DNA of 37,300 nt. Source: Candidatus Saccharimonadota bacterium (GTDB taxonomy: Bacteria; Patescibacteriota; Saccharimonadia; Saccharimonadales; Saccharimonadaceae). The notes below the pieces were generated by a model. It ran no database searches. It was not told the DNA's origin and saw nothing but the letters and a program-made list of their open reading frames with translations. Both the position numbers and the translations under genes were made by a program. The stretch lies in contig JAFWNJ010000013.1 of the NCBI GenBank assembly GCA_017510425.1, positions 1 to 37,300 of the forward strand. The letters are read 5' to 3'. Each line of letters opens with the position of its first letter. Position 1 is the stretch's first letter. Below are positions 130-13,147 of this stretch, in pieces.

Positions 130-153
130 TATTGTCTCCCCTAGCTAAAAAAC

Positions 154-243
154 AAGCGCACCACCGCTATAAACTGGTTCGTACCTTGCAACTATCAACC
201 ATCCCCGGGTCCTAGATCCGGGGATAACTTTTTTCTAAAAAAG
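154..243 (+). repeat. ~90-bp repeat copy 1 with orphan terminator
   Basis: This block matches 2141-2233: AAACTGGTT, then ACCTTG, then AACTATCAAC, then a GC-rich hairpin and a T-run. The hairpin pairs 201-208 (ATCCCCGG) with 218-225 (CCGGGGAT), followed by TTTTTT at 229-234. No rightward gene precedes this copy: a leftward gene start lies at position 46. It is therefore an orphan 3' end, probably what is left of an upstream relative of the 402-2227 unit. Confidence 0.7.
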
Positions 244-366
244 CCCAAAAATGGGCTATTTTTGATGTATTTTTACAACTATTTTAATAAATTGTCAAAG
301 TATAGAATAACAGGGGTAAAAATAAGAAAAAACGTCAAAAAAAGGCAAAAAATAAGCATAAGCCTA

Positions 367-395
367 TTGACAAAAATAAGCATGTGTGCTATAAT
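367..395 (+). promoter_or_regulatory. Perfect consensus sigma70-type promoter
   Basis: TTGACA at 367-372 and TATAAT at 390-395 are separated by exactly 17 bp. Transcription should start near 402, at the first paired base of the structured leader. This is one of two perfect consensus promoters in the window; the other is at 26035-26063. Confidence 0.85.
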
Positions 396-401
396 GTAAG
401 C

Positions 402-1036
402 ATAAGCTTGAAAAAGGCAAAAGCCCTAAAAGCTTATAGCAAATGAATAATTCAAAGCGAAAGCCGAAAGGCAAAGCTAAATGATGTTTCATTTTAACAA
501 TCCAGACAGCAAGTCGAGCTAGCAAGAAGACTTACTGTCTGGACAAGCCGAAAATCGATATTTGATATCGACAGAGTAGGCGTCCGTTAGAGCCTCATTG
601 ATTTTTATCAATAAGGACGGCTTGTACGTTAAATTAATAACGGTATATTTAGACCTTTTGAAAGCAGAAAGGGTGGGCCGTTGTTAAAACTGCTTATATG
701 ATAGTTCTCCGTCCCGCGTAATGCGGGGTGGGGTACGAACACAATAGATAAGCTCACCATATTGTGTTCATACCCGTCCACAAACTTCGGTTTGCGGGCG
801 AGAGAAGTTCAACTAGAACTCCACTATCATGGAGTGAAAGTAGAAACTTAACAATTTAAGTTGATTGAAGCCTTACGCGTTATCATCCAAACGGTATAAG
901 GTGGCAGGAAAGAAGATTTTGTGTCACGCTATACCGTTTGGAGAGCTAAGTCCGAACGGAATACTTATTGTAACCATCGGACATAGGGTCCGTTGGAAAA
1001 TTAAGCCGGCGGGCAACAAACGCAGAAAGGAGCCAA
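402..1036 (+). ncRNA. Large ornate structured RNA or 5' leader of unknown class
   Basis: About 630 nt lie between the promoter and the start of the next gene, and most can be folded into strong helices. 402-409/430-437 is 8 bp perfect. 463-465/470-472 closes a GAAA loop. 501-515/529-543 is 14 bp with one mismatch. CAAGCC at 544-549 pairs with GGCTTG at 619-624, enclosing hairpins 555-561/565-571 and 597-602/607-612. 731-746/760-775 is 16 bp. A UUCG hairpin spans about 776-799, enclosed by ATGATAGTTCT (about 698-708) pairing with its complement near 815-830. 887-898/930-941 is 12 bp perfect. Crossing pairings AAGCAG/CTGCTT (about 662-695) and GTCCG/CGGAC with AACGGA/TCCGTT (about 950-994) suggest pseudoknots. 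I do not recognise a known family. Size and complexity recall phage-associated ornate RNAs such as ROOL or GOLLD, but I see no specific match. Confidence 0.65.
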
Positions 1037-1038
1037 CT

Positions 1039-2140: not shown

Positions 2141-2233
2141 AAGTGCACCATCACTCTAAACTGGTTAGCACCTTGTAACTATCAACTATCACTACCCTCG
2201 GGCTTCGGTCCGGGGGTAAACTTTTTTAAGAAA
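2141..2233 (+). repeat. ~90-bp repeat copy 2
   Basis: Second copy of the block at 154-243, here in its natural place just after a stop codon. The part upstream of the hairpin is as well conserved as the hairpin itself, so the block is more than a terminator. The two copies bracket the RNA-plus-gene unit as direct repeats about 1.9 kb apart. Confidence 0.7.
2193..2227 (+). terminator. Rho-independent terminator with UUCG loop
   Basis: TACCCTCGGGC (2193-2203) pairs with GTCCGGGGGTA (2208-2218) around a TTCG tetraloop, with wobble pairs, and is followed by TTTTTT at 2222-2227. It ends the transcript of the 1039-2130 gene. Confidence 0.85.
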
Positions 2234-2234
2234 G

Positions 2235-2254
2235 CCGCGAAAGCGGTATTTTTT
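2235..2254 (+). terminator. Second, backup terminator hairpin
   Basis: CCGC-GAAA-GCGG (2235-2246) is followed by TATTTTTT. It lies directly behind the first terminator and just before the end of the convergent leftward gene at 2259. Confidence 0.6.
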
Positions 2255-2258
2255 ATAC

Positions 2259-3467
2259 CTAATTATAGTCATCGTAATCATCGTCATAGGCGGAAGAACG
2301 ATTGATATCGTCATATTCGGCCTGAGTGTAGTAGCCAGAAATCCGTTCTTCCCCATTGTCGACGGAGTCATCTAAGCTATCTTCATATTCGGCAATTGCA
2401 CGGCGAATTGTAGGATCCGAGGCGTGATAGCGTAACATAGATGGCGGAATGAAGAATCCATCCATATCTTCGCATTCTTGGATATCTTTAAATCGTTCGT
2501 CGGTAGATGGTCGAAATTCAAACGCATAGACATCTTCTAGTAATGCTTTAGCGAGAGCGACTGGGCGCCCTGCATAATCTTCAGAAATGACATCCCAGTC
2601 CGCAAGATCTTCTGTAAATACGCGAGCCGTCTCGGCGCCACGACTCATGGCCTTATTCAGGAATAAGGCCGTGTCAAAAGAACCGATATACTCTGGGCGC
2701 TCCATATCCTCGATAAGAGGGATGGAATCAGAAATTTGTGACAATACGCTCCTCATCATTAAGGCTTTAAGAAATAGCCGACTACTTATATCGTCGCCGT
2801 CGTAGGGATGCTCAAAATAGGTAGGTCGAATAATATTCTCTTGGAAGTCATTATAAGCGAAATCACTAATAATAAGTTTGCCGTCTTTAATTAAACTTTG
2901 ATTAACTGTAAAGTCACGAGTCTTAAAATAGCGATCTACGGTATCATTTTCGATACCATGACCGAAAGTATAATCGTCCGGCATAAACTTACGCGAGAGC
3001 GCATCCAAGGTATCATAATCAACCTCGCTATTACCCTCTTCATCAGTAATGTTCACAAGATCAATATCGCGAATAGGCTCGCGCTCACCAGTTATGATTT
3101 CTCTTGCTATACTGCGAGCTACGCCACCCATGACAGCGACGCCATGTGGTAATTCACTGAGGAAAGAATAACGCTCTAAGATCTCCGCCGGCAAAGGAAT
3201 CTCTTGGAGCGTCAATTTTTCTTCATCGAAATCGGCACGCTCCTCGCCATAATGTTGTTCCTCATATTCACTATAATAATCGTCATCATCGTAATCGCCA
3301 TCTTCGTCATAATCAATCTCTTCCTCATAGCCACTGTCACCATTGACAGCGTCATCACGCTCACTAACAACACGAGATAAACTATCGACAGCCAACTCCG
3401 TGATATCCAAATCATGCTCTTGACCGTCTTCGAACGATTCCAGATTGCCGCGCAAAAATTCGTTCAT
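2259..3467 (-). CDS. CCA-adding/poly(A)-polymerase-like nucleotidyltransferase with acidic tails
   Basis: Residues 111-140 carry the nucleotidyltransferase core pattern: GG at 114-115, an Arg-containing helix, then DID at 134-136 for metal binding. RDFTVNQ at 184-190 with an Asp at 202 matches the RRDFTINA region and later strand of the class II CCA/poly(A) polymerase head domain. The 402-aa protein also has an Asp/Glu/Tyr-rich disordered N-terminal part (about 45-85) and a C-terminal tail of alternating D and Y. The usual C-terminal RNA-binding domains are not clear. The substrate is unknown; it may be a tRNA 3' end or another RNA, or the enzyme may be a defence or antitoxin type. It has its own promoter at 3512-3517. 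Confidence 0.65.
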   Translation of the reverse strand: MNEFLRGNLESFEDGQEHDLDITELAVDSLSRVVSERDDAVNGDSGYEEEIDYDEDGDYDDDDYYSEYEEQHYGEERADFDEEKLTLQEIPLPAEILERYSFLSELPHGVAVMGGVARSIAREIITGEREPIRDIDLVNITDEEGNSEVDYDTLDALSRKFMPDDYTFGHGIENDTVDRYFKTRDFTVNQSLIKDGKLIISDFAYNDFQENIIRPTYFEHPYDGDDISSRLFLKALMMRSVLSQISDSIPLIEDMERPEYIGSFDTALFLNKAMSRGAETARVFTEDLADWDVISEDYAGRPVALAKALLEDVYAFEFRPSTDERFKDIQECEDMDGFFIPPSMLRYHASDPTIRRAIAEYEDSLDDSVDNGEERISGYYTQAEYDDINRSSAYDDDYDDYN

Positions 3468-12826: not shown

Positions 12827-12841
12827 ATAGACAAAGCGAAA

Positions 12842-12896
12842 CTGGCTCTATCCCGTTTTATAGGGCAGGCATCCATCCGGACGCTTTTCGAGCCAG
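12842..12896 (+). ncRNA. Hairpin element 0 of the intergenic RNA array
   Basis: CTGGCTC (12842-12848) pairs with GAGCCAG (12890-12896), enclosing a CCC/GGG hairpin. It lies 15 bases after the DUF3800 stop and may end that mRNA, although the T-run is poor. The inner part (12865-12892) is an inverted near-copy of 13071-13100 in element 2. No promoter lies directly in front. Confidence 0.45.
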
Positions 12897-12969
12897 CCTC
12901 TTTCACTACTAATAATAGCACACTTTATACATAAAAGCAATACTTTTTTTAGTTTTTCGTTCTAAAATA

Positions 12970-13043: not shown

Positions 13044-13122
13044 TGATAAAATAGAGACAGAGGAAGTCAGCCCGAAAAGTGTCCGTTCTGGACGCCTGCT
13101 CGAAAGAGATAGGGCTGATTTC
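13044..13122 (+). ncRNA. Promoter-hairpin module 2 (~70-nt RNA)
   Basis: TGA-TAAAAT (13044-13052) sits in the same context as module 1 (TATGATAAAATAGAG). An 11-bp stem, 13063-13073 with 13112-13122, encloses GTCC/GGAC (13081-13093) and a CTC-GAAA-GAG hairpin near 13100-13109, forming a three-way junction. The following TTTCATTTTA is a weak terminator tract. Confidence 0.6.
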
Positions 13123-13147
13123 ATTTTATGTTCATATTTTAAAAGTA

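Follow-up and report, generated by a model that had tools for sequence, protein, structure and literature searches.

Hairpins at the very start of a transcript can act on RNA polymerase, and those of the put RNA of phage HK022 do so without dedicated Nus-type loading signals. To our knowledge, regulatory RNAs have hardly been studied in the Candidate Phyla Radiation. The gamma-proteobacterial boxA element has the consensus GYTCTTTAANA, and a boxA within an mRNA leader regulates suhB (PMC5725501). The window analysed here, the whole of a 37.3-kb contig (C23) from a 0.84-Mb genome, carries a real, structured and partly conserved RNA upstream of a gene for a 363-aa protein. Sequence comparison gives good support to the view that this RNA belongs to a family of modular, exchangeable 5′ leaders in a genus of gut Saccharibacteria, and equally that the cassettes of this family are swapped between promoter and terminator. 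The leader family is previously uncatalogued.

The structured RNA and its setting

The start of the RNA is placed at about position 402, directly downstream of a sigma-70 promoter (Table 1). The earlier note had called this promoter perfect, and the match of its hexamers and spacing is indeed exact; the extended −10 is TGTG (TGTGC in the feature listing). The leaders found across the genus have promoters of the type TTGACA-TGTGCTATAATG, and a perfect promoter is the ordinary strong type there, not a peculiarity of the window RNA. With 637 bases, the window leader is the longest of the family found. The minimum free energy of the RNA (399-1040) is −228.9 kcal/mol, against −154.4 ± 8.6 in 20 dinucleotide shuffles (z −8.63); the first 456 nt of the leader alone give z −6.5, and 15 control stretches from the same genome gave z from 1.1 to −2.9. 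In at least 12 of the predicted helices, UUCG- and GAAA-loop hairpins among them, the pair probability averages about 0.9 or higher, in agreement with the many strong helices described earlier. They include helices of 13 bp (886-898/930-942), 11 bp (634-644/677-687) and 10 bp (737-746/760-769).

Table 1. Features of the leader-gene unit and its flanks, in window coordinates
Feature	Position	Strand	Remarks
3′ element and intrinsic terminator closing the preceding unit	153-258	+	98% identical in L040
Sigma-70 promoter, TTGACA (367-372), 17 bp, TATAAT (390-395)	367-395	+	12/12 match, extended −10
P1 hairpin at inferred transcript 5′ end, 402-409/430-437, inner hairpin GGC/GCC	402-437	+	pair probability 0.96
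Degenerate boxA-like site GCAAATGAA directly 3′ of P1	439-447	+	aligned to the motif by model R1
14-bp hairpin, 501-509/535-543 and 511-515/529-533	501-543	+	fold prediction
P3 domain, closing helix 543-550/618-625, two inner hairpins	543-625	+	centroid, pair probability 0.76-0.84
boxA-like motif GTACGTTAA at foot of P3, mostly unpaired linker	624-632	+	
P4, 11-bp helix and inner 7-bp hairpin	634-687	+	pair probability 0.97
P5 domain, long-range 698-704/824-830 enclosing hairpins 709-731, 737-769 and 775-800 (UUCG loop)	698-830	+	
Variable 3′ leader domain, 19-bp hairpin 886-942, hairpins 950-982 and 988-1014, helix 877-881/1019-1023, Shine-Dalgarno	857-1038	+	
Shine-Dalgarno AGAAAGGAG	1026-1034	+	predicted mostly paired, 0.20 unpaired
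Downstream gene, 363 aa	1039-2130	+	
Conserved 3′ element and terminator closing the leader-gene unit	2141-2264	+	also in G039, G126 and G044

Within P5 the long-range helix appears in the centroid only, with a probability of 0.56, and the enclosed hairpins reach 0.93-1.0. The loop of hairpin 737-769 (747-753) repeats the transcript 5′ end (ATAAGCT); it could compete for the 3′ strand of P1, as a possible switch or crossing pairing.

The leader runs into its gene through a clear ribosome site, as had been claimed: the ATG follows closely on the Shine-Dalgarno sequence, and between 402 and 1039 there is no convincing terminator, the one terminator-like site there (934-959) being weak. Strong terminators occur only at 201-225 and 3′ of the gene, and the two 3′ elements that flank the unit form a direct repeat (84% over 50 nt). 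An Rfam scan of the window RNA gave nothing at gathering score, ROOL, GOLLD and OLE included; at E up to 5 only sub-threshold matches appeared, of which the best, PK-repBA, reached 26 bits where 45 are needed and was treated as chance. Rfam likewise recognised no group I or group II catalytic core and matched no riboswitch aptamer class, with nothing credible below threshold, as the first reading of the sequence had led one to expect.

Searches of Pfam, PHROGs, NCBIfam and PADLOC found no relative of the 363-aa protein, and its single-sequence structure prediction was uninformative (pLDDT 36). As judged from predicted products, the genes at about 4.4-25 kb resemble a prophage and the right end of the window resembles host genes. 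The adjacent gene on the minus strand (2259-3467) encodes a 402-aa nucleotidyltransferase-like protein whose GG(V)AR...RDIDL signature resembles that of CCA-adding and poly(A) polymerases. Its conservation within the family extends to both chromosomal and prophage-side locations, and its named carriers are gut and rumen Candidatus Saccharibacteria. The general idea that the leaders are phage cargo was set aside because this neighbour lies on the chromosome, as do several units. No match to leader, gene or neighbour came from phage records, plasmids or IMG/VR; one IMG/VR match to a type C string falls in an unrelated coding region. Elsewhere in the window, two DUF3800-IX RNAs (Rfam RF02968, above gathering score) lie at 12834-12900 (−) and 13063-13126 (+), just after a DUF3800-like gene of the prophage-like region. 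Positions 1-75 carry, on the minus strand, an AGAAAGGAGTCACCT-ATG start preceded by an inverted repeat (79-92/107-120), which suggests the 3′ end of another leader with its gene running off the contig.

Mosaic relatives and cassette exchange

The only near-full homologue of the leader, L040 (= L100; goat ileum, genome G126), is 97% identical to the window over 153-857 and unrelated from there onward. It keeps 456 nt of the leader; the last 180 nt and the gene are replaced by a different 3′ leader domain, which has a long hairpin of its own, and by a different gene (615 aa), followed by the same terminator element. The shared leader part is 98.9% identical, with differences at 5 of its 456 bases (402-857) as against 18 of 249 upstream. 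These differences lie in loops, change an A-U pair to G-U, affect a low-probability pair or occupy the free position of the boxA-like motif; none breaks a high-probability helix. The −10 of this copy is damaged (GATAAG; L040 3409-3437) and its RNA intact, and the G126 leader may be silent or differently transcribed.

A second relative, L007, shares promoter, P1, P2 and terminator element with the window, its leader match covering only the first ~100 nt of the window leader, and differs in body and gene. Because L040 swaps the 3′ part and L007 the body, the window RNA is a mosaic. The earlier note had placed its complexity near that of ROOL, GOLLD or OLE; a single large RNA of this kind finds no support, since a convincing terminator before the gene is lacking and the homologues reveal a mosaic 5′ leader. 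A free-standing large noncoding RNA of that kind, or a dual-function RNA released from the mRNA by processing, would suit the size and complexity of the window RNA and the near-identity of 456 nt in two genomes; we nevertheless consider it improbable, given that there is neither Rfam match nor terminator, that the last 180 nt are unconserved and that relatives go down to less than 100 nt.

Exchange is seen where L007 and L052, from two genomes, occupy the same chromosomal site with entirely different leader-gene cassettes. As far as the transcription start their upstream flanks are 85% identical over 224 bp; past the terminator the identity is 86% over 177 bp, and between these two points nothing is shared. 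A sequence of 160-240 bp that recurs several times, around the exchanged cassette and close to a tRNA gene (L007 287-449, 3499-3675 and 4450-4685), is possibly a recombination site for cassette exchange. Genes also part from their leaders: the L084 and L093 genes, 57% identical, stand under leaders of different types, and a homologue of the 615-aa L040 gene, 38% identical, occurs in another setting in L147. Since leaders and homologous genes are freely combined across loci, no leader is bound to a particular product, and this speaks against feedback specific to the product. A product-specific regulatory leader, riboswitch-like or protein-responsive and gating the ribosome site, would account for the mostly paired Shine-Dalgarno sequence of the predicted window fold. 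However, the same leader heads unrelated genes, homologous genes stand under different leaders and no riboswitch family was matched, and a leader of this sort is unlikely.

A leader plan within the genus

Leaders of the family range from ~60 to 640 nt, and the relatives of the window leader from ~60 to 470 nt, some below 100 nt. Reading from similar promoters, their common plan is a start at ATA..., the hairpin P1, GNACNTTAA directly after it in most relatives, a structured body, a Shine-Dalgarno sequence and a gene. The downstream genes differ and their products are mostly without assigned identity, MYG1-like proteins being recurrent. P1 takes up the first 6-9 bases of the transcript, and its sequence varies while the pairing is kept, as in the strand pairs UAAGCUU/AAGCUUA, UAAACUU/AAGUUUA, UAGUUAG/CUAACUA, UAAACAUA/UAUGUUUA and others; its loop inserts vary from 3 to ~150 nt. 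P1 covaries among the relatives: all seven pairs are kept in 13 sequences, with two-sided changes at five of the seven, a percentage that is biased because some of these sequences were chosen with pairing as a filter.

P1 is also found in promoter-selected loci, and the bias-free set consists of the 16 loci fetched by promoter similarity only; loci found through the motif itself (L114-L190) were excluded from the enrichment tests. In this set GNACNTTAA lies within 70 nt in 8 of the 16 loci, compared with 0-1 for permuted motifs and a mean of 0.10 in shuffles, and a helix of 6 bp or more between transcript start and motif is present in 6 of 7 promoter-fetched loci, compared with 0.29 in shuffles. 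A genome-wide test found no enrichment of hairpin plus motif away from promoters; the motif is absent from strong consensus promoters in general, and L007 has no exact copy. Searches with model R1, which was built on sequences with shortened P1 loops, were dominated by the promoter part and are unusable as a census.

Leader bodies of type C (L093, L097, L147 and L150) have a long hairpin in common, with compensatory A-U/G-C exchange. Two-sided changes occur at 15 of 60 predicted pairs, the total covariation energy of these four sequences being near zero. Folding z-scores of family leaders run from −2.1 to −7.8, most of them below −4. Both results bear on the idea that the leader is a scar, a by-product of gene-cassette exchange made up of recombination sites and devoid of RNA function. 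Swap boundaries that are sharp at the transcription start and past the terminator are what such a scar would leave, but the pairing of P1 and of the type C hairpin survives sequence change and the leaders fold strongly; the idea has very little to recommend it.

Three further loci deserve mention. In the window's own genome, L203 (10391-10500) has a hairpin and GCACTTTAA directly 5′ of the Shine-Dalgarno sequence of a 565-aa PIN/PhoH-like gene. Small NLTPHT(V/I)NI proteins are encoded under type B leaders in L144 (2289-2621) and L085 (8460-8795). In the defence libraries only the NLTPHTVNI protein was matched, by a PADLOC model of an unknown protein that is CARF-associated and sometimes fused to CARF.

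The boxA-like motif and known systems

GNACNTTAA aligns in register with GYTCTTTAANA, a gamma-proteobacterial consensus, with A for T at conserved position 3 and the other defined positions compatible. The motif also stands at the boxA position of 16S leaders in six families of the order, exactly in four of them and with one mismatch in two. The forms there are GAACUUUAA, GUACCUUAA, GAACGUUAA or one-mismatch versions, 113-321 nt upstream of the 16S gene; a conserved block similar to AAAAUUGAAUAGUGCAAAUCAACGUCA comes after them. A 16S gene from the genus itself was not found, and a search of the genus for the rRNA-leader pattern gave no convincing match. From the sequence resemblance we infer that GNACNTTAA in the leaders would serve as a local boxA recruiting NusB and S10. 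The window's genome encodes NusB (PF01029, 104 bits, G000:C9). A search of this single, incomplete genome did not find the Rho RNA-binding domain; a classical anti-Rho role is therefore doubtful, and RNA folding or the overcoming of pausing is likelier than protection against Rho.

The P1-adjacent site of the window leader is degenerate: it differs from GNACNTTAA at two positions and is absorbed into helix P2 (441-447/488-494) in the predicted fold. The only perfect copy within the leader lies further 3′, at 624-632; its counterpart in L040, GTACATTAA, differs at the motif's free position. By our estimate ~0.05-0.1 perfect copies are expected by chance per 640 nt, and this copy could be chance.

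In the mechanism proposed, P1 and the boxA-like GNACNTTAA would load NusB and S10 onto the nascent RNA and RNA polymerase. The modified polymerase would then be less subject to pausing or termination, and the loading would help a long untranslated leader to fold; P1 may additionally shield the RNA 5′ end. The 3′ domain, with its largely paired ribosome site, would limit or gate translation, as the Shine-Dalgarno pairing in one fold prediction suggests. The full reading, in which 402-1038 would be the 5′ untranslated leader of the 363-aa protein mRNA and a member of the modular family, with boxA/NusB-S10 loading and translation gating included, is one to which we give about an even chance. The wider proposal is tentative: genus-wide portable expression modules in which start-site hairpin and boxA load Nus factors for long interchangeable leaders, possibly in a Rho-less host, and in which leader-gene-terminator cassettes are swapped under a fixed promoter.

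Much of the same evidence could come from generic structured 5′ UTRs, whose 5′ hairpin and stable domains protect the mRNA against nucleases and set its translation rate, GNACNTTAA being a signal at the hairpin foot for some other RNA-binding protein. P1 starts at the inferred 5′ end, the bodies differ in sequence and are nearly all strongly folded, and genes and leaders mix freely, all of which would be expected of such UTRs; they leave unexplained, however, why the same motif occupies the boxA position of 16S leaders. We think this alternative possible but doubtful.

If the boxA reading is correct, an rRNA-type antitermination signal on accessory mRNAs would take boxA well past its known range of rRNA and a handful of mRNAs, the role of Nus factors where Rho appears absent would become directly testable, and the mosaic leaders would serve to mark cassette exchange among these symbionts. 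Set beside ROOL, GOLLD and OLE, the window leader is comparable in length and structural complexity, but it is an mRNA leader of mosaic, replaceable domains that matches no Rfam family. With the HK022 put RNA it has in common a leader hairpin at the transcript start. The likeness to the boxB-boxA-boxC arrangement of rRNA leaders is that a hairpin and then a boxA-like site come near the transcript 5′ end, before a long untranslated structured RNA, and that the 16S leaders of the order carry the same motif. Unlike those leaders, which act in Nus antitermination, the Saccharibacteria leaders head protein-coding cassettes, their boxA-like site is putative, and no Rho was found in the genome. The mRNA boxA of suhB (PMC5725501) resembles them in that a protein gene has a boxA-like element within its leader, where it may affect translation; the Saccharibacteria leaders differ from it in serving many unrelated accessory genes, in having a hairpin at the transcription start before the motif, and in being much longer.
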